Of a DNA stretch of 64,000 nt, positions 13,250-32,292 are shown in pieces. Below the pieces are notes generated by a model. It was not told where the DNA came from, did not search any database, and saw nothing but the letters and a program-made list of their open reading frames with translations. The position numbers and the translations under genes were made by a program. The stretch lies in contig NZ_CP119811.1 of assembly GCF_029338395.1 (NCBI RefSeq), forward strand, positions 1 to 64,000, in the 5' to 3' direction. Numbering within the stretch: the stretch's first letter is position 1; every line of letters starts with the position of its first letter. This DNA is from Halorussus caseinilyticus (GTDB taxonomy: Archaea > Halobacteriota > Halobacteria > Halobacteriales > Haladaptataceae).

Positions 13250-13251
13250 GC

Positions 13252-15610: not shown

Positions 15611-15640
15611 GTTCCAGACGTACCCGAGTAGGGTGGAGGC
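15611..15640 (+). repeat. Orphan degenerate CRISPR repeat in front of module Y1
   Basis: The sequence matches the mini-array repeat at 22716 (core GACGTACCCGAGTAGGG) with C for A at the fourth base and two A/G changes in the final GTTGAAGC. It has the same position relative to module Y1 as the two-repeat array has to module Y2. Confidence 0.7.
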
Positions 15641-15649
15641 TCGGACGCG

Positions 15650-15740
15650 GCACGGACGGTCTTCGGCGCGTACGCTCGGGCAAGTAAGCGTCGAACTCGC
15701 CACTAACGCGGACGTATTCCCGAGCGACCGGACGGCCGGA
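15650..15740 (+). pseudogene. Relic of the PadR-like gene of module X
   Basis: The bases around CGTCGAACTCGCC and TTCCCGAGCGAC align with the 3' part of the regulator genes at 20226 and 27903 (region encoding ILDAHVRARAEQAGVELA). It is degenerate and short. The same relic follows the mini-array at 22812, so both Y modules are preceded by a remnant of an X module. Confidence 0.55.
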
Positions 15741-15827
15741 GATGAGGCAGAGTCGCTTCTGGCGATGCGTTCGGACCTCGGGTATATCGGACACGATTCC
15801 GAGGGCGGGACAGACAGGTCAACCCGG

Positions 15828-15870
15828 CTAACCAACACATCGTTATCCGAGAACTGGATTGTTGGTTAGC
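15828..15870. repeat. Inverted repeat IR1 (CTAACCAACA family)
   Basis: Arms GCTAACCAACA (15828-15838) and TGTTGGTTAGC (15860-15870) pair perfectly over 11 bp around a 21-base loop. It is one of seven such elements in the window; the loop (ATCGTTATCCGAGAAC) is shared with IR4. Confidence 0.8.
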
Positions 15871-15949
15871 GGCCGGACTCCCCGAACGTCTTGCTTCGAC
15901 GCCGACCGGGACGCCCGTCGGTTTCGGTCGGAATACGGCCGGACCCGTA

Positions 15950-15993
15950 GTTAACCAACACGTCGCTATCCGGGAGTCGGGTTGTTGGTTAGC
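15950..15993. repeat. Inverted repeat IR2
   Basis: Arms TTAACCAACA (15951-15960) and TGTTGGTTAG (15983-15992) pair with one mismatch. Its loop (CGTCGCTATCCGGGAGTCGG) is the same as in IR5 at 23136, so the pair IR1-IR2 is repeated as IR4-IR5. Confidence 0.75.
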
Positions 15994-16036
15994 GACTCGA
16001 ACGCCCGAGCGCCCCAAACGTACAGGTGGAATCGTG

Positions 16037-16080
16037 GCTAGCCAACGCGAGCGAACGAGCGACGGCTATCGTTGGTTAGC
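16037..16080. repeat. Inverted repeat IR3 (degenerate)
   Basis: Arms GCTAGCCAACG and CGTTGGTTAGC pair with one mismatch. It has no counterpart at the Y2 module, where the sequence at the same place is diverged. Confidence 0.6.
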
Positions 16081-16269
16081 GGCCGTCGTGTCGTCGCTCC
16101 CGGCCGCGAAGAGGGGTCGGCGACGGTAGCAAGTTGTGCTAACCACTGGTTGCTCGGCGGCGGTGTGTCTCGCCCCCGGTTGTCCGCCGGTTTAAGTACT
16201 ATTGCGGTGGTCTGAAAGTCCGGTTTTCTAGGGGTAGCGGCGCTATAGCTTGCGTATTGCTTCCAGTAG

Positions 16270-16403
16270 TTTTAAGTTACATCCGTGTCTACGAATAGAT
16301 AGGAAAGCCGAGGCTCATCGGGCGTTCTCTACTTTTGTGGAGAACGGTCACGGGTGTTCCAGCACCCGCGAACCACGGCTTCCTGAATCAGGTGTGAAAG
16401 CCA
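16270..16403 (+). ncRNA. Structured RNA leader of module Y1 (candidate)
   Basis: A TTTTAAGT box at 16270-16277 predicts a transcript start near 16300. The next 100 bases can fold into three hairpins: CGTTCTC/GAGAACG (16323-16346), CGGGTG/CACCCG (16351-16368) and GGCTT/AAGCC enclosing CCTG/CAGG (16377-16402). In the Y2 copy the loop of the second hairpin is different but its stem is kept, and the inner stem of the third reads CCGT/ACGG: two base pairs changed on both sides. That is covariation from only two copies, but it points to a conserved RNA structure upstream of the micro-ORF. It could be a cis-regulatory leader or a separate RNA. Confidence 0.55.
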
Positions 16404-16478
16404 ATGTACGCTACGAACGCAGTCTGTGAAAAGTGTAACGCTCGTAAAGCAAGTGCGGCCCGGACGGAGGGGGTGTAA
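16404..16478 (+). CDS. Micro-ORF MYATNAVCEKCN (24 aa)
   Basis: ATG 16404 to TAA 16478 encodes 24 residues with a CEKC pair. The Y2 copy (23592) has the same length and first ten residues but CEKR, so the Cys pair is not conserved. It starts 2 bases after the structured leader and is followed after 2 bases by the zinc-ribbon gene. It may be a leader peptide or half of a zinc-binding protein. Two analogous micro-ORFs beginning MYAI precede the X modules. Confidence 0.5.
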   Translation: MYATNAVCEKCNARKASAARTEGV

Positions 16479-16480
16479 GG

Positions 16481-16660
16481 ATGGGGTGTCGCAAGTGTGG
16501 TTGTCGCACGCCGAACCGTCTCTGTCGAGACTGTGAACTCATGGAGCGCGCGGAAGAGGCCGCGCGCCGAGAGTCCGACCGAGAGCTATTCCCCGCCGAC
16601 TGTCCCGAGTGTGGCGGCCCAACCAGTGGCGAAGGCGTCGTCTGCGCGGGGTGTCGCTAG
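16481..16660 (+). CDS. Small double zinc-ribbon protein (59 aa)
   Basis: The protein opens with GCRKCGCRTP and RLCRDCE, then has a charged helix, then CPECGGPTSGEGVVCAGCR at the end. That gives four CxxC-type pairs, enough for two zinc sites. Its stop TAG directly abuts the ATG of the next gene (16661). A paralogue (16 or so substitutions, all Cys kept in the ribbon ends) is at 23669. Such tiny zinc proteins are frequent in haloarchaeal plasmids and viruses; the role is unknown. Confidence 0.75.
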   Translation: MGCRKCGCRTPNRLCRDCELMERAEEAARRESDRELFPADCPECGGPTSGEGVVCAGCR

Positions 16661-17065
16661 ATGGCGTCGAACACGCACGAGACCGACGCCGAGACCGAGA
16701 CCGACAGTGAGGTGGTGCGCGTCGAGGCGGCCGTCGAACAAGTCTTGAACGGCTTGCAGGTCGGACTTCCCGGCGCAACCACAACCTGCGCCTACTGCGG
16801 ACGACAGCTGCACGACGGCGACTGTATAACCGTCTACGCCTACCGGAAAGCCGGACACCACCACTGGAACTGCCCCAGAGTGTACTGTCGCAGCTGTCGG
16901 AACAGCGACGACGGCGTACCGACGCCCACCCTCGGCACCACCGAGATTCTCGCCACCGCCTTCCTCGGCATCATGCAGGTCGCCGCCGCACAAACCACAC
17001 GGTTAGCGTTAACGGACGTAGAGGTGCAGAGCTACAGTCACCCAAGCGACGGAAGCGAAGGATAA
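16661..17065 (+). CDS. Zinc-binding protein of module Y (134 aa)
   Basis: The acidic N-terminus is followed by CAYCGRQLHDGDC, YRKAGHHHWNCPRVYCRSC (a Cys/His cluster that could hold one or two zinc ions), then the hydrophobic TLGTTEILATAFLGIMQVAAAQTTRLAL and a tail SYSHPSDGSEG. No known family is recognised. The start codon directly follows the upstream stop, so the pair is co-translated. The last ~30 bases (encoding SHPSDGSEG) recur at 24226 and, as a scar, at 25634. The paralogue is at 23849. Confidence 0.75.
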   Translation: MASNTHETDAETETDSEVVRVEAAVEQVLNGLQVGLPGATTTCAYCGRQLHDGDCITVYAYRKAGHHHWNCPRVYCRSCRNSDDGVPTPTLGTTEILATAFLGIMQVAAAQTTRLALTDVEVQSYSHPSDGSEG

Positions 17066-17185
17066 CTACTTCCGGAGGTAATTTTTACCTACTATTATTA
17101 TTTTATTCATTTAATCAAAGCTCGGTGGATAGTTGGCAAGTGAAGATAATCCTTATACGGCATTAGGAGCGATGTAAGCTTACAG

Positions 17186-18079
17186 ATGGGCAAGATGCTT
17201 CCAATTCGCTGGTACGGCGGTAAATACTCACACTTAGATTTCATTCTACCACAGCTCCCTCAAACACACCAGTACATCGAACCATTTGGTGGAAGTGCCG
17301 CGGTTCTGTTGAATCGTGACCCCAGTCCTGTGGAAACATATAACGACATTGATGGAGATGTTGTCAATTTCTTTAAAGTTCTGCGAGAGAATCGGGACGA
17401 ACTGCTGGAGAAAATCTCACTTACACCATTTTCCAGAGAAGAACTCGCTGAAGCGGTCGAAAAAAAGCAAAACGATGATTTGAGCGAGCTTGAACGGGCT
17501 CGCCTGTTTTTTGTCCGAGCGGGACAAACACGAAGTGGTCTTGCACAAGAAGCGACCCCCGGACGATGGGCATACTGTAAGTCCACATCACGACGAAACA
17601 TGTCGGGGGCGGTTAGCCGATACCATGGCCGTCTTGAACAATTGTACGACGTAGCAGACCGTTTACGACGTGTTCAAATAGAGAACAAGGACGCAGTTGA
17701 AGTAATTGAACGGCATGAGGATGAAGACGCTTTGTTCTACTGTGACCCTCCTTACCCTCATGAAGTACGTGGCGATACAAACAGCTATGGTCACGAGATG
17801 ACAGACGAAGACCATCGTGAACTCGCTGAGACTCTTCGGAATTGTGAAGGTAAAGTCGCGGTCTCAGGGTACTGTTGTGACCTCTACGAAGAAATTTTTG
17901 AGGATTACGGGTGGAACCGAGTAGACGCGGAGTCGAAAACGATGCACACGACCAAGGATGAGCGACAGGAATCGCTCTGGTTGAATTACGAACCGCCAAA
18001 TCGAAATGTTGAACCCGGCGTGGATGTCGATGAAATTGATAATCAGCAACAAACTCTTGTGGATGCTACTGACGAGTAA
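17186..18079 (+). CDS. DNA adenine methyltransferase, Dam/D12 class
   Basis: A 297-aa N6-adenine methyltransferase that uses S-adenosylmethionine. Motif I is IEPFGGSAAVLLNRD (~31-45), an N-terminal RWYGGK motif (~8-13) is typical of the D12 class, and the catalytic motif IV is FYCDPPYP (~185-192). Its length is normal for the family. It carries lower G+C than its neighbours, suggesting separate acquisition. It precedes a SacI-like endonuclease by 83 bases, forming a type II restriction-modification pair; the methylase would protect the host site. Start ATG 17186 or 17195. Recognition sequence cannot be read from the protein. Confidence 0.92.
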   Translation: MGKMLPIRWYGGKYSHLDFILPQLPQTHQYIEPFGGSAAVLLNRDPSPVETYNDIDGDVVNFFKVLRENRDELLEKISLTPFSREELAEAVEKKQNDDLSELERARLFFVRAGQTRSGLAQEATPGRWAYCKSTSRRNMSGAVSRYHGRLEQLYDVADRLRRVQIENKDAVEVIERHEDEDALFYCDPPYPHEVRGDTNSYGHEMTDEDHRELAETLRNCEGKVAVSGYCCDLYEEIFEDYGWNRVDAESKTMHTTKDERQESLWLNYEPPNRNVEPGVDVDEIDNQQQTLVDATDE

Positions 18080-18162
18080 CTCATAACCCCACTAGGATTT
18101 TTCCTATACATTCGGTTTTTCGCTTATATAGCTTTTTACCTGACTCTTAGACTCTTTTCTCG

Positions 18163-19263
18163 GTGTCTACATTGGCGGAAAGCGTTGACAATAGCGAAGC
18201 CAAGGAACTTCTAAACCAGGAATGGAATCGCGTTTTGAACAACGACCAAAACACATACGTTGAAGATGGTTTCGTACGGCAGAAAATCGGCGAGGTTCTA
18301 AACGCTTCCCAACTCACATATAAGTATATTCTCACGACGAATATACTTGCAAAGGCTGTTAATCCTCGAATTCATTACCGAGCAATGCAGGCACAGTGGG
18401 ACCATCCCGGTGCATACAACGCTCGTTCACTCGGACATGACGTACTCGTAGAATGGGAGAAAGACCATGGTGAGCGCCTTGGTGGTTCAAATGAACCGTT
18501 TCTGAATAAACCTGCTCGGTACCCCAATTTCTCGATGGAGAATCCCCATCGGTCCGAGAAGGCACATAGTCGTCTCTACGAGCTTCTGGAACAACTCCAA
18601 GAGAAGACTGAATCCGGCGAAATTGAACCGGTAGATATTCTTCGCCAGACCTTATCCGAAATAGAGGAACTAGAATCTCAAACCGTTGATTTTGTTTCAC
18701 CATCGGATGTCCCGTACCAGTCTCTCCGAAATCAGGTAGAGAAATATATTCGTAAATCTGGAGGTGGAGAGCGTCTTGCGTCAATCACAGCAGGCGTGAT
18801 GAAAGCGTACTATTCTCATACAGATGGGGAAGATTGGACTATTGAGGCAGAACATCCAAATGTTCCAGACGAATTCAGTAATGCGGCCGGTGACGTAGAA
18901 ATAAAGCGTGGGGGTGACGTTGTACGGGCGATAGAGGTTAAAGACAAACATAGCGAGCGAAGTGATATTCAACATGCAATTACGAAAGCCCGTGAAAATG
19001 AACTCGGAGAGTACCTCTACGTCGTCGGTAGCGGTTGGCGGAATAAAACCGAAAAAGAGAGAGCCCAAGAAGAGATTGAAAACGCTCCTATCGAATTAAT
19101 TCTCATCTATCCGGATGAGTTACTCAACCTTCTGAAATTCATTACGGATGCTGGACGAAAGCAATTCGTGGAAGCTGTCGGTGAGTATCTAAACAAGATG
19201 CGCGCGAGCGAGGAAAACAAACAAAACTGGAAGGAGTTAGTGACTGAGTTAGGAGATAGCTAG
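18163..19263 (+). CDS. Type II restriction endonuclease, SacI-like
   Basis: A 366-aa protein starting at GTG. The segment NPRIHYRAMQAQ...GAYNARSLGHDVLVEWE and GGSNEPFLNKPARYP is characteristic of the SacI endonuclease family. A nuclease core D-V-E-I ... IEVKDKHSE (about 245-265) fits PD-(D/E)xK. It cleaves DNA at sites left unmethylated by the methylase encoded just upstream. The gene is AT-richer than the surrounding DNA and ends in a T-rich stretch. The known SacI partner is usually a cytosine methylase, so pairing with an adenine methylase is slightly unusual. Confidence 0.8.
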   Translation: MSTLAESVDNSEAKELLNQEWNRVLNNDQNTYVEDGFVRQKIGEVLNASQLTYKYILTTNILAKAVNPRIHYRAMQAQWDHPGAYNARSLGHDVLVEWEKDHGERLGGSNEPFLNKPARYPNFSMENPHRSEKAHSRLYELLEQLQEKTESGEIEPVDILRQTLSEIEELESQTVDFVSPSDVPYQSLRNQVEKYIRKSGGGERLASITAGVMKAYYSHTDGEDWTIEAEHPNVPDEFSNAAGDVEIKRGGDVVRAIEVKDKHSERSDIQHAITKARENELGEYLYVVGSGWRNKTEKERAQEEIENAPIELILIYPDELLNLLKFITDAGRKQFVEAVGEYLNKMRASEENKQNWKELVTELGDS

Positions 19264-19329
19264 CATTTTTGCTATACATAGCAATTTTGCGTTATAAAGT
19301 AAAAATAGCAAAGATGGGTACATCATCCC

Positions 19330-19569
19330 GTGTCGTTAATCGGCGAGACGAAAATGGAAATCCTACGTCGGCTTGCAGAAGCACCTAGCTACGGTTATCA
19401 ACTCCACAAAGATGTTGGTGTATCAACACCAACCATCTACCGTCATCTTAATGACTTAGAAGACGCAGGAATGGTCAAATCAACGCCAATAGAAGATGAT
19501 AGCCGAGACAAGACGGAGTATCACATCACTGACGAAGGCCAACAGCTATTAGAACTATTAGGAGACTAA
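19330..19569 (+). CDS. Small winged-helix regulator
   Basis: A 79-aa single winged-helix domain: LIGETKMEILRRLAEAPSYGYQLHKDVGVSTPTIYRHLNDLEDAGMV, then a wing and ITDEGQQLLELL. It resembles the PadR/ArsR type. The start is GTG 19330, with ATG 19351 as an alternative. It lies 66 bases after the endonuclease gene on the same strand and shares its lower G+C, so it may be the control protein of the restriction-modification system (inference). Confidence 0.8.
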   Translation: MSLIGETKMEILRRLAEAPSYGYQLHKDVGVSTPTIYRHLNDLEDAGMVKSTPIEDDSRDKTEYHITDEGQQLLELLGD

Positions 19570-19615
19570 CTCTTTTCTGATTTATCGGCGTTCTACTAAG
19601 CGAAAACACGTCGCT

Positions 19616-19897
19616 CTACTTCTCGCCCTCTAGTTCGGTCGCGTCGAGTTCGCCAGCCAGATACGCACGACCTTTCTCGGAGATGGCGTAGTAGCCTTCT
19701 TTGTCACGTACCTTCTCTACAAGTCCGTTCTGCTGTAGCTTCTTCAACCGTCGCAGAATTGTCGAGTAGGACACATCAATTCCTTCTCGCTCAAGGTTAA
19801 TTTCTAATCCCGTCGGCGGAAGGGCTACATCGTGTTCGTGGAGATATTCCAAGATAGAATCGTCGTTTCCGGTCATCCACGAAACACGCGGGCGCAT
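19616..19897 (-). CDS. PhiH1-repressor-like winged-helix regulator
   Basis: A 93-aa protein starting MRPRVSWMTGNDDSILEYL, with the recognition helix VSYSTILRRLKKLQQNGLVEKV and the family tail ISEKGRAYLAGELDATELE. I chose ATG 19897 over the upstream 19993 start by alignment with its paralogues; the upstream extension is not conserved. It diverges from module X1. It resembles the protein at 27291, which lies at the equivalent place upstream of X2, so it is probably the regulator or immunity repressor of the X element. Confidence 0.85.
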   Translation of the reverse strand: MRPRVSWMTGNDDSILEYLHEHDVALPPTGLEINLEREGIDVSYSTILRRLKKLQQNGLVEKVRDKEGYYAISEKGRAYLAGELDATELEGEK

Positions 19898-20072
19898 CTT
19901 ATACTCGGCATTACCAAACAGAGTTTTAGTTACTCTGATACTCAGCATTTTGAGGGCATATGCAGCTATTTTGAAAGCATATACTGCCAACATTTATTAC
20001 CTTGCTACGGTATATCCGTGGTTAGGAAGCAACTCGCGGACCTACAGCTACTGAATCCGGTCGCGGAAGGAA

Positions 20073-20103
20073 GCGGACCGATGGTAGGGACATCGGGTCC
20101 GCG
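20073..20103 (+). promoter_or_regulatory. Hairpin upstream of module X1
   Basis: GCGGACCGATG pairs with CATCGGGTCCGC with one bulge, around a GTAGGGA loop. The X2 copy at 27746 keeps the stem. It lies 27 bases before the micro-ORF start and so would be in its leader RNA. Confidence 0.6.
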
Positions 20104-20130
20104 AAACGCTTCCACCATCACAGCAGAAGC

Positions 20131-20229
20131 ATGTACGCAATCAGAGCGCGGGGACTTGAATCTCCCGCACGGTTAGCGGCGCGTATCGCATTCAGAACCA
20201 ACCCGTTCGCTGGAGGTGCCGAAGCGTGA
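20131..20229 (+). CDS. Micro-ORF MYAIRARGLESP (32 aa)
   Basis: ATG 20131 to TGA 20229. It is highly similar to the X2 copy at 27808 (MYAIRTRGLESPARIAARIAF). Its stop overlaps the GTG start of the regulator gene by four bases (GTGA), so the regulator is probably translated by coupling. The basic, small product may be a leader peptide. The ATGTACGC start is shared with the micro-ORFs of module Y. Confidence 0.55.
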   Translation: MYAIRARGLESPARLAARIAFRTNPFAGGAEA

Positions 20230-20651
20230 CGGCCGAGGCTCTGCCGTCGCTGGTGGACCTGCACGGGTTCCAACGGGACGTACTGTTCGCCGTTCGCGCG
20301 CTGGAACGCGGCGGCGACCCGCCGAGGGGCCTTCGGGTGAAACGCCGGTTGGAAGCGACGTATTACGAGGAGGTGCATCACGGCCGTCTGTACCAGAACC
20401 TCGACACGCTCGCCGACCAAAACCTCATCTCGAAGGGCGCGAAGGATGGCCGCGCGAACGAGTACGCGACGACCGACGCGGCGCGCACTATCCTCGACGC
20501 GCACGTCCGGGCGCGCGCCGAGCAAGCGGGCGTCGAACTCGCCAACAACGAACCCGACGCCTTCCCGAGCGACGAGACCGAGACCGAGACGCGAAGCCGC
20601 GGTGAACAGACGGAACTGGGCGACACCCCGGCAACGGAGGGCGAAGCGTAG
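20226..20651 (+). CDS. PadR-like winged-helix regulator of module X1
   Basis: A 141-aa protein from GTG 20226. Residues ~8-90 form a winged helix (VDLHGFQRDVLFAVRALERGG, VKRRLEATYYEEVHHGRLYQNLDTLADQNLISKG) as in archaeal PadR-type regulators. An acidic Glu/Thr-rich tail follows. The N-terminus overlaps the micro-ORF stop, and the stop shares one base with the GTG of the next gene. It is about 90% identical to the X2 copy at 27903. Relics of its 3' half lie at 15650 and 22812. It is a likely regulator of module X. Confidence 0.8.
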   Translation: MTAEALPSLVDLHGFQRDVLFAVRALERGGDPPRGLRVKRRLEATYYEEVHHGRLYQNLDTLADQNLISKGAKDGRANEYATTDAARTILDAHVRARAEQAGVELANNEPDAFPSDETETETRSRGEQTELGDTPATEGEA

Positions 20652-21154
20652 TGACCGCCCGCGACGAGTTCGGGCCGGACCTCGACACCGCAATCCCGGA
20701 AACGTTCGACGTGTGCCCGGACTGTGGCACGCCGACGGTGAAATTGGGGAGTCACGACTGTCCGGCCGACGAGTCCTTGCAGGACCCGACGCGGGAGGAA
20801 CGCGACCGGCGTATCGAGAACGACCCCTACTCGGACGACGAGACCGTGCTGGTGCGTGACCGGCCGCGGCCGTGGGCCTACGCCTATCACGAACGCGGTG
20901 ACGACCGCCAAACGTTGTGTCCCGCCCACCAGAACTCCGAGTTCTACGAATGCCCGCGCTCGAAGGCGAAAGAACGCGGGTTCTCGCCGTGCCAGTTCTG
21001 CCGCCGCATCCGCGACGCCAACAGCGACGACGCCGACCGCGACCGGGACGGAAAGAGTTCCGACCGGGACGACGACGCCGAGAGTTCTGACCGAGAGCGC
21101 AACGACCGGGACGACGATGCCGACCGTGAGCGCGGGGTGGTTGCGTGTGAGTAG
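20651..21154 (+). CDS. Zinc-ribbon protein of module X1 (167 aa)
   Basis: The GTG start overlaps the upstream stop by one base. It contains CPDCGTPTVKLGSHDC (zinc site 1) and a second set around LCPAHQNSEFYEC...PCQFCRRIRD (zinc site 2), then a long Asp/Arg/Glu/Ser-rich disordered tail that varies in length from the X2 copy. No known family is recognised. It ends 8 bases inside the next small gene. Confidence 0.7.
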   Translation: MTARDEFGPDLDTAIPETFDVCPDCGTPTVKLGSHDCPADESLQDPTREERDRRIENDPYSDDETVLVRDRPRPWAYAYHERGDDRQTLCPAHQNSEFYECPRSKAKERGFSPCQFCRRIRDANSDDADRDRDGKSSDRDDDAESSDRERNDRDDDADRERGVVACE

Positions 21155-21269
21155 CGCGCGCCCGGCGCTTGCGGACGGCCGGTGTCCGGAATGCGGCCGC
21201 TCTATCACCGCGCTCTCGGCGACCGGCCCGGACGCCCATACCGCCGACCCCTGCGGTTGCACCGTCTAA
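21147..21269 (+). CDS. Tiny zinc-ribbon protein (40 aa)
   Basis: It starts at GTG 21147 inside the end of the preceding gene and ends at TAA 21269. It contains CPECGRSITALSATGPDAHTADPCGC, four Cys that can bind one zinc ion. The X2 copy (28812-28940) keeps all four Cys despite several changes around them, which supports it as a real gene. Confidence 0.65.
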   Translation: MSSARPALADGRCPECGRSITALSATGPDAHTADPCGCTV

Positions 21270-21293
21270 CAACCAACCAGACTCTCGAAACCA

Positions 21294-21653
21294 ATGAGCG
21301 ACAACATCGAAGACACGACTGACAGTACCGCCAACAAAGCACTCGACGCGACCATCGCGCCCGCCGCGACGAAAGCGGACAAGCAAGACATCGTGTACTA
21401 CCTCGAACGCTTGTTCGTCGGGGCGTACCCACCCGGCACCACGCTCCAGTACTACGACTACGAACTCACCCACACCACGGAGGGCGTGTGGAGCGTTCAA
21501 CACCGCGACGACGCCAACCCTATCGACGTGCTGAATCCCGACGCCTTCCGGAGCGCCACCGAACTACAGGCGTACCTCGACGCGCTCGCCGACTACGCGC
21601 CCGACGACCGCGACGACTGGTACGCCCACCGTGCGGGAGGTGACGGACAGTGA
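21294..21653 (+). CDS. Conserved 119-aa acidic protein of module X
   Basis: An acidic N-terminus (~30 aa, variable between copies) is followed by a well-conserved part: ADKQDIVYYLERLFVGAYPPGTTLQYYDYELTH, then ELQAYLDALADYAPDDRDDW. No known domain is recognised. Its stop overlaps the GTG of the next gene (GTGA), so translation is coupled. Confidence 0.7.
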   Translation: MSDNIEDTTDSTANKALDATIAPAATKADKQDIVYYLERLFVGAYPPGTTLQYYDYELTHTTEGVWSVQHRDDANPIDVLNPDAFRSATELQAYLDALADYAPDDRDDWYAHRAGGDGQ

Positions 21654-22381: not shown

Positions 22382-22400
22382 CCACGCTCCCCGACTCATA

Positions 22401-23666: not shown

Positions 23667-23668
23667 CG

Positions 23669-24871: not shown

Positions 24872-24885
24872 GTCTTGGATAGTGG

Positions 24886-25452: not shown

Positions 25453-25633
25453 AGTGTTATCCTCGTACCATATCCACAACGGCCAACCCTTATTAATCTT
25501 ATTAATGTTCAACACGTCGAACAAATCATAAGACGCGGAAAAACGTGTAAAAACACGTCTCGAACAACTCAAACAACACCTACCAAATCTATAGTTATGC
25601 CAACCCAACATCGAACAGATAGACAAAATCAGT

Positions 25634-25668
25634 AGCCACAGTCACCCAAGCAACGGAAGCAAAGGGTA
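25634..25668 (+). repeat. Scar of the 3' end of module Y
   Basis: ACAGTCACCCAAGCAACGGA and the following AGCAAAGGG match the end of the gene at 16661 (codons for SHPSDGSEG) with G-to-A changes. With the intact end at 24226 it forms direct repeats around the toxin-antitoxin operon. Confidence 0.65.
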
Positions 25669-25720
25669 GAGAACGGAAGCAGATTTTTTCGGGGGAGTAC
25701 TGGTAGTGGTGGTTGGTGTT

Positions 25721-26005
25721 TTACAGGTCGTCTTGGGTGAAGATTAGCTTCGCGCTGTTCTGGTTGAGCCAGTTGGATTTTTCTTGATAGTTGGGGATTT
25801 GGTCGGCAACTTGTTGCCAGAAGGCTTCGCCGTGGTGTTGTTCGGTGAGATGTGCGAGTTCGTGAACGACGATGTAATCAACTACGTCAGGTGGTGCCAT
25901 GATGAGTCGCCAGTTCAGACTGAGTGTGCCGCCTGTCGAACAACTTCCCCATCGGGTTCGTTGGTTACGGAGTTCAATGTCGGTTCTTCCATTCTCCTTG
26001 GTCAT
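25721..26005 (-). pseudogene. YgjP-like (DUF45) metallopeptidase, C-terminal fragment
   Basis: The 94 residues hold the family signature RTRWGSCSTGGTLSLNWRLI followed by the zinc-binding HELAH motif (VVHELAHLTEQHH, ~47-60) and FWQQVADQIPNYQEKSNWL. Members of this M48-like family are ~230 aa, so the first ~60% is missing. The break is exactly where CRISPR array 3 begins (26006). It is probably inactive: the zinc site remains but the N-terminal domain does not. ATG 26005 is likely accidental. Confidence 0.8.
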
Positions 26006-26478
26006 GTTTCAATCCCGGTGTGGGTTTTCTGGGTTCTGCGACATTACGGACATGGCGACAAGCGGCCCGCACGCCGAGTTTCAATCCCGGTGTGGGTTTT
26101 CTGGGTACTGCGACCTGTTTCACGTTCTGGAAGTCTGACTGGGCCAGTGTTTCAATCCCGGTGTGGGTTTTCTGGGTACTGCGACGCTCCGACTCCCCTC
26201 GCGGCCGACCAAAACGTGACCGTTTCAATCCCGGTGTGGGTTTTCTGGGTACTGCGACCACGGACATCTAAATTAGTTGTGAACAGGCCGGTAAGCGTTT
26301 CAATCCCGGTGTGGGTTTTCTGGGTACTGCGACAAACTTCAATGAACCCTGCAAGCTCCCTTTCAAGGTTTCAATCCCGGTGTGGGTTTTCTGGGTACTG
26401 CGACGAGTCCACAGGACGCTGTGGTCGTGGCGGACGTCGTTGTTTCAATCCCGGTGTGGGTTTTCTGGGTACTGCGAC
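26006..26478 (-). CRISPR. CRISPR array 3 (7 repeats of 37 bp, 6 spacers)
   Basis: Repeats start at 26006, 26078, 26149, 26222, 26297, 26368 and 26442 (plus-strand core CCGGTGTGGGTTTTCTGG). Spacers are 34-38 bp. The leftmost repeat has one change (TTCTGC for TACTGC), marking it as the old, trailer end. Read on the minus strand the repeat ends in ATTGAAAC, a common crRNA handle, so transcription runs right to left and the leader is at 26479 onward. The repeat family differs from arrays 1 and 2, and no cas genes are present. Confidence 0.97.
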
Positions 26479-26645
26479 CGGGGGTGAAAATCCGGCGAAC
26501 GACCCAATAAAGCTTGCTCTTGCGCTCGTTGAACCGGCGTCGTTCGTGGACCCCTGCTGTACAGAGACTTTAAAAAGGTCCACGAAGATAACCGAGAATT
26601 GTTCTGCGACCGCGCTCGCGCGTCATGGCTTCGACCGAACTCGTC
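26479..26645 (-). promoter_or_regulatory. Candidate leader of CRISPR array 3
   Basis: It lies at the young end of the array by orientation. It carries GACTTTAAAAAGG (around 26567-26579), a possible TATA box for minus-strand transcription. Confidence 0.45.
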
Positions 26646-26903
26646 CTACTTGTCTTCTAGTTCGCTCGCGTCGAGGTCGCCAGCGAGGAACTGCTCACCT
26701 TCTTTGGAGAGTTCGTATTTGCCTCGTTCGACCCGATTAACGAGACCATGGTTCGTTAATTCTTGTAGGCGTCGAGAGACTCCTTCTCGGCTTGAACCAA
26801 GATTATAAGCGATAATTGAGGGTGATAGGACGAGACCTGCCGACTGGAGCAGTTCTAAAACTCGCTCGTCCATCGGTGTCATCCAGTCAGCCCGATAGCG
26901 CAT
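26646..26903 (-). CDS. PhiH1-repressor-like winged-helix regulator
   Basis: 85 aa: MRYRADWMTPMDERVLELL, then SREGVSRRLQELTNHGLVNRV and tail SKEGEQFLAGDLDASELEDK. It is the first of three tandem paralogues on the minus strand (26646, 26912, 27291), ~45-60% alike by eye. It sits next to array 3, where it may be a remnant of a former element's repressor. Confidence 0.85.
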   Translation of the reverse strand: MRYRADWMTPMDERVLELLQSAGLVLSPSIIAYNLGSSREGVSRRLQELTNHGLVNRVERGKYELSKEGEQFLAGDLDASELEDK

Positions 26904-26911
26904 CGCTGAAT

Positions 26912-27193
26912 CTACTCGCCTCCAGTTTCTAAGTCGCTCGCGTCCAACTCGCCAGCCAGATACTCACGGCCTTTCGCTGTAATCTGATAGAGAGACCCGT
27001 GAGGTTGTGCGACAAGACCGACTTCGCGTAATCCTTTGAGCGCCCGTGTGACAGTTGCTTGAGACGGGGGACGTTCCAACTTCTGCTGTAGGTTATAGAA
27101 GATACCTGTCGCAGAGAGGGCTAAATCGTGTTCTGCAAGAAGTCTTAGCGTAGGCCTTGTTGCGCTATTCTCCCAGTCCGGCCCTCTCGTCAT
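26912..27193 (-). CDS. PhiH1-repressor-like winged-helix regulator
   Basis: 93 aa: MTRGPDWENSATRPTLRLL, PPSQATVTRALKGLREVGLV, tail ITAKGREYLAGELDASDLETGGE. It ends 8 bases upstream of the start of the next paralogue (26903) on the same strand, so the two are likely co-transcribed. The N-terminus deviates from the usual WMT motif. Confidence 0.85.
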   Translation of the reverse strand: MTRGPDWENSATRPTLRLLAEHDLALSATGIFYNLQQKLERPPSQATVTRALKGLREVGLVAQPHGSLYQITAKGREYLAGELDASDLETGGE

Positions 27194-27241
27194 TGTTGGT
27201 AAATCTCATATCTCGGTTTATTACCTCTGACGATGGAAGCA

Positions 27242-27290
27242 ATGTACGCAATCGGAACGTGGGAACCTGACCAGCGAGTCAGTTATCATC
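27242..27290 (+). other. Decayed start of an X-like micro-ORF
   Basis: GCAATGTACGCAATCGGAACG matches the micro-ORF start of module X (MYAI...), but the frame then runs antisense through the 27291 regulator. It seems to be the scar of another module copy. Confidence 0.4.
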
Positions 27291-27572
27291 TTACTCGTCT
27301 TCAAGGTCGCTTGCGTCCAACTCGCCAGTTAGATACGCACGGCCTTTCTCCGTAATTCGATAGTACGACCCTTTCTGCCGTACTTGTTCGACAAGGCCTA
27401 TCTCTTCGAGCATAGGGAGTCGGCGCTTGATTGTCGAGTAGGAGATGTCTTCGCCTTCAAGCTCAAAGTTGACTTCGAGGGCTTTCTTATTTAGAGCGAC
27501 ACCGCTCTCTGCCAGAAGCTCAAGGATTCTATCGTCACTTCCGGTCATCCACGATGCTCTGCGGCGTCGCAT
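27291..27572 (-). CDS. PhiH1-repressor-like winged-helix regulator
   Basis: 93 aa from ATG 27572 (MRRRRASWMTGSDDRILELLAESG); the extension to 27620 is not conserved. The recognition helix is ISYSTIKRRLPMLEEIGLVEQV and the tail ITEKGRAYLTGELDASDLEDE. It is closest to the protein at 19616. Both diverge from an X module, suggesting they are its dedicated repressors. Confidence 0.85.
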   Translation of the reverse strand: MRRRRASWMTGSDDRILELLAESGVALNKKALEVNFELEGEDISYSTIKRRLPMLEEIGLVEQVRQKGSYYRITEKGRAYLTGELDASDLEDE

Positions 27573-27745
27573 TGACCGAGACTCGCAAGACGAGATTATT
27601 AACAGCACCGAATACGTCACTTAAAGAACAAATATCAGTCCACTATAGCCCAATATTTGGGCAAGTTTTATTGTAGTGCCATATTCAGTGAACAGTACGG
27701 AGCAAATCGCGGACCCGTCGCTCTTCGATGGGTCCACTAGAGAAA

Positions 27746-27777
27746 GCGGACCCCGATGCTAGGGTCATCGGGTCCGC
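27746..27777 (+). promoter_or_regulatory. Hairpin upstream of module X2
   Basis: GCGGACCCCGATG pairs with CATCGGGTCCGC around CTAGGGT with a single bulge. A second small hairpin (CCGTA/TACGG) follows before the micro-ORF start. Confidence 0.6.
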
Positions 27778-27807
27778 GTGAGCCTCCGTAATCAGGCTAC
27801 GGAAGCC

Positions 27808-27906
27808 ATGTACGCAATCAGAACGCGGGGACTTGAATCTCCCGCACGGATAGCGGCGCGTATCGCATTCACAACCAACCCGTTCGCTGGAGGTGCCGGA
27901 CGGTGA
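27808..27906 (+). CDS. Micro-ORF MYAIRTRGLESP (32 aa), X2 copy
   Basis: It has the same length as the X1 copy; its TGA overlaps the GTG of the regulator gene. About 27 of 32 residues are identical between the copies. Confidence 0.55.
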   Translation: MYAIRTRGLESPARIAARIAFTTNPFAGGAGR

Positions 27907-28325
27907 CGGACTCGCTCCCGTCGTTGGTAGACCTGCACGGGTTCCAACGGGACGTACTGTTCGCCGTTCGCGCGCTGGAACGGGACGGCGACCCGCCGAG
28001 GGGCCTTCGGGTGAAACGCCGGTTGGAAGCGACGTATTACGAGGAAGTGCATCACGGCCGTCTGTACCAGAACCTCGACACACTCGCCGAACAGAACTTG
28101 ATAGCGAAGGGCGCGAAGGACGGCCGCGCCAACGAGTACGCGACGACCGAGGCGGCGCGCACTATCCTCGACGCGCACGTTCGGGCGCGCGCCGAACAAG
28201 CGGGCGTCGAACTCGCCACCGACGCGAACGCCTTCCCGAGCGAGAACGGGACCGGGACCGAGACGCGAAGCCGTGGTGAACAGACGGAACTGGGCGATAC
28301 GCCAGCAACAGGGGGCGAAGCGTAG
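27903..28325 (+). CDS. PadR-like winged-helix regulator of module X2
   Basis: A 140-aa paralogue of the 20226 protein. The winged helix (VDLHGFQRDVLFAVRALERD, LYQNLDTLAEQNLIAKG) is almost unchanged; differences cluster in the acidic tail (DANAFPSENGTGTETRS). It has the same overlapping gene junctions on both sides as in X1. Confidence 0.8.
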   Translation: MTDSLPSLVDLHGFQRDVLFAVRALERDGDPPRGLRVKRRLEATYYEEVHHGRLYQNLDTLAEQNLIAKGAKDGRANEYATTEAARTILDAHVRARAEQAGVELATDANAFPSENGTGTETRSRGEQTELGDTPATGGEA

Positions 28326-28819
28326 TGACCGCCCGCGACGAGTTCGGCCCGGACCTCGACACCGCCATTCCCGAGACGTTCGACGTATGTCCGGACTGTG
28401 GGACGCCGACGGTGAAACTCGGGAGTCACGACTGTCCGACCGACGACTCCCTCCAAGACCCGACACGGGAAGAGCGCGACCGGCGTATCGAGAACGACCC
28501 CTACTCGGACGACGAGACGGTTCTCGTGCGTGACCGGCCGCGGACGTGGGCGTACGCCTACCACGAGACCGACGCGGACGAGAACACGCTCTGTCCCGCC
28601 CACCAGAACGCCGACTTCTACACGTGTACCCGCGCGAAAGCGAAAGAACGCGGGTTCGCTCCCTGCCAGTTCTGCCGCCGCATCCGCGACGCCAACAGCG
28701 ACGACCGAGACCACGACCACGACGACCACGAGCGCGGCCGGGACCGAGATACGTCGAACCCGAGCGCCAACGCCGACCGCGACGGAGAGCGCGAGCGTGG
28801 GGTGGTGGCGTGTGAGTAG
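28325..28819 (+). CDS. Zinc-ribbon protein of module X2 (164 aa)
   Basis: Same zinc sites as the X1 copy (CPDCGTP...HDC; LCPAHQ...CTRAK...PCQFC), with a His/Asp/Glu-rich tail of different sequence (DRDHDHDDHERGRDRD). The tail has clearly evolved faster than the zinc domain. Confidence 0.7.
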   Translation: MTARDEFGPDLDTAIPETFDVCPDCGTPTVKLGSHDCPTDDSLQDPTREERDRRIENDPYSDDETVLVRDRPRTWAYAYHETDADENTLCPAHQNADFYTCTRAKAKERGFAPCQFCRRIRDANSDDRDHDHDDHERGRDRDTSNPSANADRDGERERGVVACE

Positions 28820-28940
28820 CACTACCGCGTGTTCGGCGCTCGCGGACGGCCACTGTCCGAAATGCGGGACGCCGATTACGGCGCTGTCGGCGGACGGCCC
28901 GGACGCCCACCATGCCGACCCCTGCGGTTGCACCGTCTAA
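28812..28940 (+). CDS. Tiny zinc-ribbon protein (42 aa), X2 copy
   Basis: It runs from GTG 28812 to TAA 28940 and contains CPKCGTPITALSADGPDAH and PCGC. It overlaps the end of the upstream gene by 8 bases as in X1. Confidence 0.65.
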   Translation: MSSTTACSALADGHCPKCGTPITALSADGPDAHHADPCGCTV

Positions 28941-28966
28941 CAACCAACCAGAGACTCTCGAAACCA

Positions 28967-29329
28967 ATGACTGACAACACCAACACCGACGACACGGACT
29001 GTACCGACACGCAAGCACTCGACACCACCATCGCGCCCACGAAAACGAAAGCCGACCGGCAAGACATCGTGTACTACCTCGAACGCCTCTTCGTCGGCGC
29101 GTACCAACCCGGCACCACGCTTCAGTACCACGACTACGAACTCACCCACACCACCGAAGGCGTCTGGACCGTTCACCACTGCGACGGCGCGAACCCCATC
29201 GACGTGCTGAACGTCACCGCCTTCCACAGCGCCACAGAGCTACAGGCGTACCTCGACGCGCTCGCCGACTACGCCCCGGAGGACCGCGACGACTGGCAGA
29301 CCCACCGCGCAGGAGGTGACGGACAGTGA
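28967..29329 (+). CDS. Conserved 120-aa acidic protein, X2 copy
   Basis: It starts at ATG 28967 (MTDNTNTDDTDC), matching the X1 start at 21294; the longer frame from 28829 overlaps the previous gene and is rejected. The core DRQDIVYYLERLFVGAYQPGTT is conserved. The stop overlaps the next GTG. Confidence 0.7.
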   Translation: MTDNTNTDDTDCTDTQALDTTIAPTKTKADRQDIVYYLERLFVGAYQPGTTLQYHDYELTHTTEGVWTVHHCDGANPIDVLNVTAFHSATELQAYLDALADYAPEDRDDWQTHRAGGDGQ

Positions 29330-30054
29330 GCGCCGACGGGTCCGACCAGCCAATCGACGCGCTCGACCACCACGACCTCGCCCGCGAAGTCCGGAAACTC
29401 CGCCAAGAAGTCGAACAACTCCGCGCGAACTACGAAAGCCAGCAGGTCGAACTCGAACAACTGCGTGGCGACCTCCAGCGCGAGCGCCGCGAGCGCAAGG
29501 ACGCCGAGGAAGAACTCAGAAAAGAACGCACCCAACAGATTGCGAACGCAAAACTCTCCATCCACGACGACATCGAAGACCTCCACGACACGGTGGTTGA
29601 CGAACAACAGATGCGGAGTCGCGCCGACGCCCAACTCAAACACCGCGTCAACGAGGTTGCTGAAGCGGCCGACGTGGAAGTCACCGACGCCGACCTCATC
29701 GAGAAAGACCGTCTCGTCCGCCTCGTCCGGAACGGTCCCGAGGACGTGACCGACCGTATCTATCCCGTCCACGAACGCGCCCGCGCCCTCCTCCAGCACG
29801 CCAACGACTGGGGCCGGGTCGTCTCCGACGCCAACGGCTACCGCGTCGTCTACACCGCGCCCGAGGTCCGACCGTTTCTGAACGCCTACTTCGACCGCAC
29901 GTTCAAGTCCAGCGAAATTAAGCGCGTCTTCGAGAAGATTCGCGGTCTCGCCGAAACGTCGCCGCGGACGGTCCGGAAGGATAAGACGCGGAAGGGCGAA
30001 CACTTGCTCGTGGTGGAACTCACCGAAGACGGCCACATCCTCGCCGCCGACTAA
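29326..30054 (+). CDS. Coiled-coil protein with C-terminal winged-helix-like domain, X2 copy
   Basis: A 242-aa paralogue of 21650; the coiled coil is (LRQEVEQLRANYESQQVELEQ) and the C-terminal domain (FLNAYFDRTFKSSEIKRVFEKI) is near-identical. It is the last gene of the X2 operon, followed by the conserved hairpin at 30099. Confidence 0.7.
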   Translation: MSADGSDQPIDALDHHDLAREVRKLRQEVEQLRANYESQQVELEQLRGDLQRERRERKDAEEELRKERTQQIANAKLSIHDDIEDLHDTVVDEQQMRSRADAQLKHRVNEVAEAADVEVTDADLIEKDRLVRLVRNGPEDVTDRIYPVHERARALLQHANDWGRVVSDANGYRVVYTAPEVRPFLNAYFDRTFKSSEIKRVFEKIRGLAETSPRTVRKDKTRKGEHLLVVELTEDGHILAAD

Positions 30055-30073
30055 CCACGACAGCGAACTCATA

Positions 30074-30277
30074 GGTGGTGTTAGCACAGCCACCACGGGC
30101 GGGGTGTCAGCGACACCCCGCGCCCTCCCGCAATCACGCTCTCACGACAACTACACTTGCACACACGGTCTAGCGGACTTGTACAAGGCGGTATGGGTAG
30201 TCGTGAGTGTGTTTTGAAGAGTGGTCGTCGGTGGTCGTCTAGCCCGCAGTGACGAACCTGATTCTGCTAACACCACC
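30074..30277. repeat. Palindromic tail of module X2
   Basis: GGTGGTGTTAGC (30074-30085) and GCTAACACCACC (30266-30277) enclose the hairpin GCGGGGTGTC-AGC-GACACCCCGC (30099-30121) and CTTGTACAAG (30178-30187), as in X1. Confidence 0.65.
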
Positions 30278-30662
30278 TGTTCGGCCGACAGTGGAGTCGA
30301 GTAACGTTCGAGAAACGACCGAGATGTTGGCCCGGATAGCGTCCCGTCGGTCGCTTCCGGCCGAGTAACCGTCGAACAACAACCAAGACGGTCTCGTCCG
30401 ACAGACGAAGGGGGCGACGAACAACCGAGTTCGGCGGTCGGAAGCGCCCCGTTGCTCGGAAAGTCAGTCGACCCCCTTCTCTCGCGGTCGCTAACGGCGC
30501 TCGCTCCCACCCCCGGTGACTCGGTATCGTCGTGTTCAGGCGCTCTCGACCGTGGTATCGCGGCGTAATCGACCCCCGGTCAACCCCGGACTCGGCAGGG
30601 TCGACTGAAACACCGGTCGATGAACGCCAGATACAAGGCCTCTCCCCCGCGATACACCCATG
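30278..30662. other. Gene-free stretch before CRISPR array 2
   Basis: The first ~120 bases continue the X tail (GAGAAACGACCGAGATGTTG, as in X1). The rest is G+C-rich without a clear gene or an AT-rich leader. By orientation the array 2 leader should lie here. Confidence 0.4.
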
Positions 30663-31698
30663 GTTACAGACGAACCCGAGTAGGGTTGAAGCCTCTTTGG
30701 TCACGTAGTCGTCGGCGTCGCCGTCGTTGCGTTACAGACGAACCCGAGTAGGGTTGAAGCGACCGAGACGCCCGAGACGCCGACGGCGAGATGACCGTTA
30801 CAGACGAACCCGAGTAGGGTTGAAGCCGTTCCGGTCGCTGGAGGATGGCAGTGAGAAGGCGTGTTACAGACGAACCCGAGTAGGGTTGAAGCGCTCGAAC
30901 CGACCGCGAAGACAGTCTTAACGAGCGCGGTTACAGACGAACCCGAGTAGGGTTGAAGCCAGCACTTGGGAAGTCAGTCGGGGCCGGATGTGCCCGGTTA
31001 CAGACGAACCCGAGTAGGGTTGAAGCTCACGATCGACGGGACGCTCCAGTTCGTCCCCCACAGCGACCGTTACAGACGAACCCGAGTAGGGTTGAAGCTA
31101 ACCTCGAAGCCCGCCCCCGGAATCGAACCGGAGAAGTTACAGACGAACCCGAGTAGGGTTGAAGCCGGGTCACCGCGTCAGCAAAGTTCTCGGCTTGAGC
31201 GCGGTTACAGACGAACCCGAGTAGGGTTGAAGCACCGTGTTCTCAAACGCTACTGACACAGAACCGTCGCGTTACAGACGAACCCGAGTAGGGTTGAAGC
31301 TCTGTCTCATCGCGGGCGAAACTCCCCATCTCAGCCGCGTTACAGACGAACCCGAGTAGGGTTGAAGCGCCGCCGTCGTCCTGCTGGCAGGACTCAGCCT
31401 GAGTTACAGACGAACCCGAGTAGGGTTGAAGCGACAGACCGACCGGCGGTCAATCGCGTGTTGGACCGGAGTTACAGACGAACCCGAGTAGGGTTGAAGC
31501 CCGACTCCCGGCCCAGTTGTCTCGACTCGCTCCGTGTTACAGACGAACCCGAGTAGGGTTGAAGCGAGGTAGTGAACCGCCAGTAGCCGCCCCACGTCGC
31601 CGTTACAGACGAACCCGAGTAGGGTTGAAGCAAGGTCGCTGTTGCCCTGCTCGGCCCATTCGAGGAATGTTACAGACGAACCCGAGTAGGGTTGGAGT
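30663..31698 (+). CRISPR. CRISPR array 2 (16 repeats of 30 bp, 15 spacers)
   Basis: Repeats (core ACGAACCCGAGTAGGG, ending GTTGAAGC) start at 30663, 30731, 30797, 30863, 30930, 30997, 31069, 31136, 31204, 31271, 31339, 31403, 31471, 31536, 31602 and 31669. Spacers are 34-42 bp. The last repeat ends GTTGGAGT, a decayed trailer repeat, so transcription is left to right. The repeat differs from array 1 by a single G for C in the stem. It lies between the X2 tail and IR6, matching the position of the two-repeat array after X1. Confidence 0.97.
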
Positions 31699-31841
31699 TC
31701 GCTCAGGAGTGCATCGTAGAACCGTGTCTGGGGTTATAGATGCGTGACGACTGCGCGCGGGGAACGCCGCCAGCGTCTCGACCAAACTCGGCCTCGGATG
31801 ACGAGGGCGAGAGATAGGCCGGGAGAGAACAGTCTACCCGA

Positions 31842-31883
31842 CTAACCAACACACCACTACCTGAGAACTGTTGTGTTGGTTAG
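31842..31883. repeat. Inverted repeat IR6
   Basis: Perfect 12-bp arms CTAACCAACACA (31842-31853) and TGTGTTGGTTAG (31872-31883) around an 18-base loop that resembles the loop of IR4 (CTACCTGAGAAC). Confidence 0.8.
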
Positions 31884-31951
31884 CGACCGAACTCCCGACC
31901 GCGACCCCGACCCCACCGACCTCGACGCCGCGCCGTCGTCGCCGAGATGGG

Positions 31952-32215
31952 TCAGGGAGCGTCTACGTCGTCGGGGACGAGTGTGAAATCGAACGTGCGG
32001 AAGTCGCTGTCGAACGCGAAGATGTGGTCGATGTCATGGCGGTCGGCGAGACCGCTACTGGTGTGGTCAACGAACGAAATCTGGTGGTCGTCGTACCGAG
32101 CGAACTCCTCGCACGCCGCATCGAACACAGGCTTATCCACGGGAAACACGGTGAAACTCCCGTCCCCCGAACGAGCGTGAGCGTCTCGACGCCGACCGGG
32201 ACGCCAGCCACACCC
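31952..32215 (-). pseudogene. PIN-domain (VapC-like) toxin, C-terminal relic
   Basis: The frame ...VFPVDKPVFDAACEEFARYDD then ISFVDHTSSGLADRHDIDHIF, AFDSDFRTF...LVPDD is the C-terminal half of a haloarchaeal PIN-domain RNase. It keeps acidic residues of the active site (FVDH, FAFDSDF), but the N-terminal Asp (usually in LDTS) is absent. An upstream piece (GVPVGVETLTLVRG) lies in another frame. It lies between IR6 and IR7, where modules elsewhere carry defence cargo. Not functional. Confidence 0.6.
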
Positions 32216-32249
32216 TCACCGTTGGTCTCGGACAGAACGCGAATCCGGG

Positions 32250-32292
32250 CTAACCAACAGTGGTGACTGGGGGAACGGCGGTGTTGGTTAGC
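32250..32292. repeat. Inverted repeat IR7
   Basis: Arms GCTAACCAAC (32250-32259) and GTTGGTTAGC (32283-32292). The loop differs from all others. It is the last element before the right toxin locus. Confidence 0.75.

Follow-up and report, generated by a model that had tools for sequence, protein, structure and literature searches.

Integrons combine interchangeable cargo with repeated palindromic sites. Hotspots of antiviral systems are carried by P2-like phages and P4-like satellites (PMC9122126), and Pseudomonas aeruginosa has core defence hotspots (PMC10250203). Haloarchaea possess origin recognition boxes (ORBs), which have a G-string at their ends and also exist as Cdc6-titrating clusters (PMC3528665, PMC3936714), and C(P)XCG zinc-finger micro-proteins occur in Haloferax (PMC11241148, PMC10716476, PMC6562870). 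Likenesses to each of these are found in the stretch of DNA described here, a window of 64,000 nucleotides (positions 1 to 64,000 of contig NZ_CP119811.1) from an archaeon deposited as Halorussus caseinilyticus, which our analysis places probably in the genus Halorussus. Two modules, Y and X, occur twice in the window with differing cargo between them, and a structured leader RNA that belongs to Y is the most surprising part of the arrangement that held up.

As far as the abstracts of those papers describe them, the P2/P4 hotspots resemble the Y-to-X intervals in having variable content that holds antiviral systems, whereas here there are several copies of one flank pair, on an archaeal plasmid and together with an RNA leader and palindromes; the Y-X blocks yielded no identified phage or satellite genes, although no phage-library search was made. 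The core hotspots of P. aeruginosa, in the same abstracts, share with this locus the placing of defence systems at defined genomic places, but in this case plasmids carry multiple copies of the flanks themselves, and no excess of defence genes in the slot is seen on the plasmid of genome G024 (G024:C7, unit ~199.7 kb). Interchangeable cargo and repeated palindromic sites recall integrons; however, a search of the genome's own two plasmids, C3 and C4, for the one recombinase family covered (PF00589, tyrosine integrase) gave no match there against 10 in the genome as a whole, and the palindromes lie beside Y rather than at each cargo end. The palindromes are similar to ORBs, as the latter are outlined in the papers on them, in being inverted or dispersed replicon repeats that in some cases lie near orc1/cdc6 genes, but those listed show no constant G-string (flanking bases being not systematically covered) and most of those on Halorussus plasmids lie kilobases from an orc1/cdc6-like match. 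No description of the Y-X layout or of the leader RNA was found in the literature searched at title and abstract level.

The window is part of contig C3, a circle of ~142.3 kb whose start sequence recurs at ~+142.3 kb (untrimmed), and the sister plasmid C4 is a circle of ~116.45 kb that is also untrimmed past one turn; because both contigs extend past one turn, copy counts in the raw assembly are inflated. A sequence-only reading of the window had described a mobile scaffold, laid out twice, in which X and Y form the backbone and defence genes fill a fixed slot. The observation is confirmed and recurs in the genus, while the interpretation is partly supported. Alignment of the two copies for their edges puts Y at 15610-17061 and 22781-24249 (80% nucleotide identity) and X at 20068-22716 and 27741-30390 (85%), and the match between the Y copies stops at the end of the gene for Y134. 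Module Y consists of palindromes, a folded RNA leader, a 24-amino-acid open reading frame (ORF; 'MYAT') and two Cys-rich genes, Y59 and Y134, and module X of a divergent winged-helix gene, a PadR gene, zinc-type proteins and a coiled-coil protein. Both Y regions hold every component that had been reported for them, namely the PadR relic, CRISPR repeats, palindromes, leader, MYAT ORF and two zinc-type genes.

Recurrence was examined in a genus set of 18 genomes (including G012, H. aquaticus; G016, H. limi; G019, H. pelagicus; G021, H. ruber; and G027, H. vallis) and a family set of 28. X is present above 200 bits in 5/18 genus genomes and Y134 above 140 bits in 6/18; five genomes have both, none X only, one Y only and 12 neither (Fisher P 0.0007, with cut-offs chosen after the scores were seen), and in all five genomes with X and Y the two lie on one contig. 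When weaker or partial matches are counted as well, Y134 is present in 14/28 and the X coiled-coil protein CC243 in 8/28 family genomes. X and Y are not scattered without consistent order: Y, cargo and X on one strand recur on other plasmids of the genus. In a count over six plasmids, which belong to five of its genomes, the next module is a same-strand X for 11 of the 16 Y, against shuffle means of 5.2 (random strands, P 0.001) and 6.8 (strands shuffled, P 0.007). By plasmid the counts are 6/7 on G024 (shuffled 2.1, P 0.001 for this plasmid alone), 2/2 on C3, 1/1 on G019, 1/3 on G012, 1/2 on G026 and 0/1 on C4. Y copies that are broken are counted, as is a weak Y (31% identity, G026:C6:174175), whereas the distant Y134 of G013, G017, G023 and G027, a further Y134 remnant on both G019:C4 and C4, and the X on G026:C11 and C12 are left aside; the Y on the 4.6-kb contig G021:C24 was excluded because the contig ends. 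G024:C7 carries seven Y and seven X, with five Y followed by a same-strand X and a sixth preceding a fusion of a methyltransferase with the C-terminal portion of the coiled-coil protein, counted here as an X remnant. H. pelagicus has Y, a type I restriction-modification (RM) system and X in succession, and in H. aquaticus McrBC-like and other genes lie between Y and X.

The cargo differs from copy to copy. In the window, cargo 1 contains, on the forward strand, a D12-class N6 adenine methyltransferase (17186-18079; Pfam 6e-28) and a SacI-type restriction endonuclease (18163-19263; Pfam 1e-51), bearing out its earlier description as Dam/SacI-like, followed by a 79-amino-acid protein of winged-helix type (19330-19569; below cut-offs). 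Cargo 2 had been called Panacea/RelE-like; the SocA/Panacea-domain protein stands (24886-25626, reverse strand; 3e-14), but the RelE-like label of its 152-amino-acid partner (24413-24871, reverse strand) finds no Pfam, PADLOC or NCBIfam match. A fragment of a YgjP-like metallopeptidase (25721-26005, reverse strand; 4e-33) and seven CRISPR repeats of another type than the main one (26006-26478, forward strand) complete it. Eleven Y-to-X intervals were read, with part of the ORFs scanned in the long ones. Beyond the two of the window (S1 and S2), six are on the G024 plasmid and hold a PDC-M11B candidate defence protein (S3; 3e-25), an OLD/GajA-like ATPase (S4; 1e-31), McrC with an AAA_5 ATPase (S5; McrC Pfam 7e-14), a C5 methyltransferase (S6; 2e-59), two ORFs without match (S7) and the Dam-type methyltransferase fused to the coiled-coil remnant (S8). 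The remaining three are a type I RM system in H. pelagicus (S9; HsdM 2e-274), AAA_5 and MrcB_N (5e-44) in H. aquaticus (S10) and, behind the weak Y of G026, a type IIG RM protein (1.5e-69), GmrSD, a helicase with HKD domain (3e-86) and a HEPN protein (S11). In 10/11 intervals, one or more proteins are thus known or candidate defence proteins as judged from a family match or from similarity, and the systems range over RM types I, II and IIG, McrBC, OLD/GajA-like, PDC-M11B, GmrSD, Panacea and CRISPR.

Of the features expected of a defence hotspot, conserved flanks recur in several genomes and the content between them differs. GC content at third codon positions (GC3) is lower in cargo than in scaffold genes in 6/8 intervals measured: 0.40-0.44 in cargo 1 and 0.61-0.66 in cargo 2 against 0.68-0.85 for scaffold genes of the window, and on the G024 plasmid 0.32-0.58 (S3, S5, S6, S7), a mixed 0.36-0.73 (S4) and 0.84 (S8) against 0.69-0.82. 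The backbone and the diversity of its cargo are confirmed; a slot specific for defence is less well supported. A PADLOC scan of G024:C7 at 1e-10, which covered 22 of 23 slot ORFs of at least 150 amino acids and 56 of 59 others (X, Y and two cas regions excluded), gave matches for at least 4/22 slot ORFs and about 12/56 others, counted by distinct family names (hard bounds 2-20; the non-slot tally names 19 families and the slot tally shows 25 of 149), and the plasmid is defence-rich generally.

The leader RNA is a branched fold with a long basal stem and two hairpins, located at 16296-16386 and 23485-23575 on the forward strand. Four genomes have a 90-92-nucleotide fold of this kind ahead of Y, in 11 copies spread over five plasmids, with folding z-scores of -4.5 to -5.3 in three examples (one pattern match in G012, inside a winged-helix gene, was left out). 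These 11 copies alone show next to no covariation (1/25 pairs). Within the genus, the strong matches to a covariance model derived from these copies all lie upstream of Y (14 matches including contig-end duplicates, in 4/18 genomes); for the Y copies of H. aquaticus and G021 the model gives no leader match. In the class sample it matches 21/242 genomes, 19 of them outside the genus and weaker, at 29-40 bits, and 20 stretches (L177-L196) covering 21 of the 28 weaker matches were fetched. When Y leaders and weaker relatives are aligned in 32 rows, 97.0% of paired cells can pair, both sides change in 19/25 pairs, and the covariation score is 0.393 against 0.115 for shuffles (above all 500) and 0.03-0.07 for slid versions, although fitting the alignment to the model works in favour of this score. 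The wider haloarchaeal consensus, by eye, is about GGAAGCCAC...CCCCGGGTGCTGGNACACCCGAGAC..GTGGCTTCC. The Y leader is, by this analysis of alignments, a predicted covarying structured RNA and part of a wider haloarchaeal set. At gathering score, Rfam gave no match to the leader within 15500-32500, where only CRISPR-DR24 was found.

What follows the leader is also of a kind. At 15/20 of the fetched loci an ORF with paired Cys residues (by eye of zinc-ribbon or SWIM-like kind) begins no more than 450 nucleotides downstream on the same strand, compared with 1/20 when the other direction is taken and 6.5% for 4000 positions chosen at random, under a Cys-pair rule that was set after a first look at the same loci. 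Like the C(P)XCG micro-proteins of Haloferax, Y59 and these ORFs are small haloarchaeal proteins with Cys pairs; unlike here, a structured leader RNA is not mentioned in the opening parts of the abstracts on the Haloferax proteins. It is possible, though doubtful, that the leader RNA family controls small zinc-protein genes in several families and that, on Halorussus megaplasmids, one RNA-controlled operon of this sort, with plasmid-specific palindromes around it, would serve as the left flank of a multi-copy structure that lacks transposase and integrase, swaps defence systems and CRISPR arrays through recombination of its repeated flanks and brings them under plasmid regulators.

The second recurrent signal beside Y is a palindrome, CTAACCAACA-N22-TGTTGGTTAG, found at 15828-15869 and, 123 bp on, at 15951-15992. 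A third, decayed one (16038-16079) corresponds in alignment to the 5' palindrome that Y copies of other plasmids have in intact form, and the two intact ones are read as a putative leftover of a preceding Y unit, to be compared with G019:C4, where, as on C4, Y remnants with palindromes stand in tandem with a further Y. Two more lie upstream of Y copy 2 (23014-23055 and 23137-23178), one follows the CRISPR array (31842-31883) and the last is at 32250-32291. Distances to the Y genes are near-fixed, at 326-361 bp upstream of Y59 (6 copies) and 90-111 bp (10 copies) or 228-237 bp (5 copies) downstream of Y134. The spacing of the arms varies as little: in 993 kb of fetched DNA (counting a few contig-end duplicates) it is 26 bp in 41 cases, 27 in 12, 25 in three, 28 in one and 42 in one. 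The pattern CTAACCAA(YR)-N22/23-(YR)TTGGTTAG occurs in 7/18 genus genomes, with all matches listed and none on a chromosome-size contig, and a reversed control pattern has no match across all 18. In the six genomes with a strong Y the palindromes sit on contigs carrying Y or X; the seventh genome, G015, has no Y134 match. There is nearly a single arm version per plasmid, CA/TG on C3, C4 and mostly G015, and TG/CA on the others. The CA/TG palindrome also occurs in six viral stretches, one of which was matched, weakly, by a TSP3-type protein and by no other query; a search of the viral collection confirmed no relative of one Y134 or of the X protein Zn167.

A class-wide search, made with a variant whose spacer is two bases shorter, found the palindrome in 25/391 genomes sampled, including two from the genus; because the loci were picked through this search (G015 through both spacings), they hold the shorter variant by selection. 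In these other haloarchaea the most frequent ORF family within 800 bp is orc1/cdc6-like (10 loci), followed by a small unnamed protein family (9 loci). With N18-25 allowed, 11/49 class loci have a palindrome and an orc1/cdc6-like gene no more than 1.2 kb apart (minimum 15 bp; some near-duplicates), and a ParA gene or partner lies within 3 kb of only 4 of 80 palindromes, so that ParA/ParB-type centromeres were rejected as a general rule for the palindromes.

CRISPR repeats are a frequent neighbour of the scaffold and not a fixed part of it. The window has a decayed repeat with 4 mismatches (15611-15640), two repeats at 22716-22811 and an array of 16 (30663-31698; Rfam CRISPR-DR24 for 15/16), all on the forward strand, and C4 carries seven repeats of the same main type. 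The idea that the element brings CRISPR arrays with it is not supported in that form: with three repeat types searched, repeats lie within 1 kb of only 5/19 X tails (two on C3, one each on C4 and G024, and a single repeat in H. pelagicus; one further tail is not fully readable), and 3 of these 5 also have a palindrome there. The possibility that the X tail acts as a CRISPR leader was discarded, as the repeats after X run in the same direction as X on C3 and in the opposite one on C4. The plasmid of the window arrays has no cas1; the genome has just one Cas1 match (C4:106544-107383), which lies between CRISPR arrays, not outside a CRISPR-Cas locus as in a casposon.

How such a scaffold might have arisen is best explained, with a probability of about 0.5, by Y and X being the halves of an old plasmid operon that was split and multiplied, with cargo exchanged by homologous recombination and the whole under plasmid control. 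The ancestral operon would have comprised a zinc ribbon, Y134 and the coiled-coil protein; on Halorussus megaplasmids inserted genes would have split it into Y and X, which then multiplied, and, given repeated similar modules, plasmids could exchange the intervening DNA through homologous recombination and would need no recombinase of their own. Such recombination is favoured because neither own plasmid has a tyrosine integrase. Y would be controlled through its RNA leader and a palindrome-binding protein with plasmid-specific arm preference, and X repressed by its divergent winged-helix gene, the outcome being interchangeable defence modules under plasmid control. Y134 is followed by an X-like coiled-coil gene in three of four distant-Y134 genomes examined, namely G023, G013 (both genes broken) and, by eye, G017, where a zinc-ribbon gene, Y134 and the coiled-coil gene succeed one another near an orc1/cdc6-like gene. 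On plasmid pHTUR03 of Haloterrigena turkmenica a divergent winged-helix gene, a 100-amino-acid gene and Y134 stand in a row, and the methyltransferase fusion in S8 is a deletion scar.

Several observations weigh against a split operon with exchangeable cargo. The fourth distant Y134, that of G027, has no coiled-coil gene beside it, five of the 16 Y copies lack a same-strand X as next module, several X copies lack a Y, and pairs on one plasmid may share one duplication and are thus not fully independent. A Dam-type methyltransferase gene at G024:C7 56434-59233 is interrupted in that ~2.2 kb, including a Y unit, replace ~270 bp of it, which looks like an insertion rather than a cargo swap between fixed flanks. 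Exchange of cargo by recombination is something we infer, and on G024 the slots show no per-ORF excess of defence genes. This last point would suit a view in which there is no special slot at all, plasmids simply being rich in defence genes and dispersed repeats, with Y and X as duplicated regulatory modules and typical plasmid content between them. We consider this unlikely, given that the order and strand of Y and X are non-random and that the similarity of the window copies stops at module edges where cargo starts.

The Y...X blocks could instead be remnants of separate small plasmids or proviruses fused into a megaplasmid, the palindromes being Orc1/Cdc6-related replicon-control sites and the cargo the accessory regions of these ancestors. 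The palindromes near orc1/cdc6-like genes at 11 of the 49 class loci fit such a history, as do the nearly plasmid-specific arms and the relatives of Y134 or the coiled-coil protein that lie a few kb from orc1/cdc6-like genes in G017, G027 (annotated) and Haloarcula JP-L23. Yet the G024 plasmid, with its seven Y and seven X, has only two orc1/cdc6-like matches, both outside Y-X intervals, and one ParA gene pair (by eye), and the eleven intervals, of ~2.4-15 kb, contain no full-length orc1/cdc6-like match, with fragments in two, which makes a graveyard of cointegrates rather unlikely. An integron-like or other site-specific system, with the 42-43-bp palindromes as recombination sites and a recombinase encoded elsewhere moving Y or cargo, would account for palindromes flanking Y at near-fixed distances, for the tandem Y remnants on G019:C4 and C4, and for Y-bearing DNA inside the methyltransferase gene. 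It seems quite improbable, since no PF00589 integrase is encoded on the own plasmids (again, the only recombinase family searched), palindromes do not bound the stretch within the methyltransferase, window cargo begins after Y134 with no palindrome between, and the 22-bp spacer exceeds the usual cores of tyrosine recombinases, which are shorter. Neither clean element ends nor a target duplication nor, within PF00589 on C3 and C4, an own recombinase was found, and the term mobile element is not supported as used in the earlier description.

The genes of the two modules, all on the forward strand unless stated, are as follows. Y copy 1 contains the remains of a PadR gene's 3' part (15677-15740, by sequence similarity; the region ~15.64-15.73 kb is 71-78% like both PadR genes), and the relic in copy 2 (22842-22905) matches 28193-28256, within the second PadR gene, at 73%. 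A TATA-like TTTTAAGTTA (16270-16279, by eye) lies just upstream of the folded leader, which is followed by the 24-amino-acid ORF (MYATNAVCEKCNARKASAARTEGV at 16404-16478; MYATNAVCEKRNVRQLVAACSEGV at 23592-23666), by Y59, a small protein of double zinc-ribbon type with a weak DZR_2 match below cut-off (16481-16660 and 23669-23848), and by Y134, a Cys-rich protein without named family (16661-17065; 23849-24256, 135 amino acids). The best of five AlphaFold2 models of Y134 has a mean pLDDT of 76.7 (the others 41-53), and its fold found no PDB match at E<=0.001. A Y134 search of the genome collection returned one locus only, in Halorussus ruber, on the same 4.6-kb contig as in G021, and NCBIfam named none of seven X and Y proteins scanned above cut-off.

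X copy 1 has its divergent winged-helix gene (wHphi) on the reverse strand at 19616-19993 (homologue at 27291-27620), then a PadR-type regulator (20226-20651; 1.3e-7), the zinc-ribbon type Zn167 (20651-21154, Cys pattern by eye), a zinc-ribbon type ORF of about 40 amino acids (CPECG...PCGC; 21147-21269, start uncertain), a 119-amino-acid protein without family (21294-21653) and CC243, with a coiled coil and a poorly modelled C-terminal domain (21650-22381). The counterparts in copy 2 are PadR (27903-28325), Zn164 (28325-28819), a zinc-ribbon type ORF of about 42 amino acids (28812-28940, start uncertain), the relative of the 119-amino-acid protein (28967-29329) and the coiled-coil protein (29326-30054). 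Copy 2 also has, on the reverse strand, three different, stacked divergent winged-helix genes (26646-26903, 26912-27193 and 27291-27620, together 26646-27620) before a single PadR gene, and other X copies have one, two or none found. The 40-42-amino-acid ORFs of X (CPxCG...PCGC) resemble, by eye, ORFs downstream of the leader RNA in other families. The predicted model of CC243 is confident only in the coiled coil, residues 11-115, its C-terminal part being unreliable; the coiled-coil protein of G024 type is ~24% identical to the window type over its full length and alignable along the C-terminal part. In a tree of X, the copies of the window genome form one group and those of three other genomes another (100/100), which speaks for amplification within each lineage.

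Two further gene sets recur on these plasmids. Large TSP3-repeat proteins at 9767-12247, 5982-9929 and 40027-44049 (one below cut-off) have copies on C4, alike over long stretches and different elsewhere, with small low-GC genes beside some; judged by eye, these proteins and their neighbours resemble candidate polymorphic toxins. A pair of genes for 230 and 647 amino acids recurs beside Y or a CRISPR array (window 12557-15195; C4 20772-23245; G024:C7 190991-193626). The 647-amino-acid protein (13252-15195) has no Pfam or PADLOC match, and a CHAT label considered for it was dropped as it lacked a family match.

Haloarchaeal messages are often leaderless, and in such a group the covarying RNA, which precedes proteins of zinc-binding type across several families, is a candidate regulatory RNA. 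To our knowledge, the gathering and reshuffling of defence systems on archaeal plasmids have been little studied, and a multi-copy scaffold with defined flanks makes such reshuffling testable by sequencing of strains.

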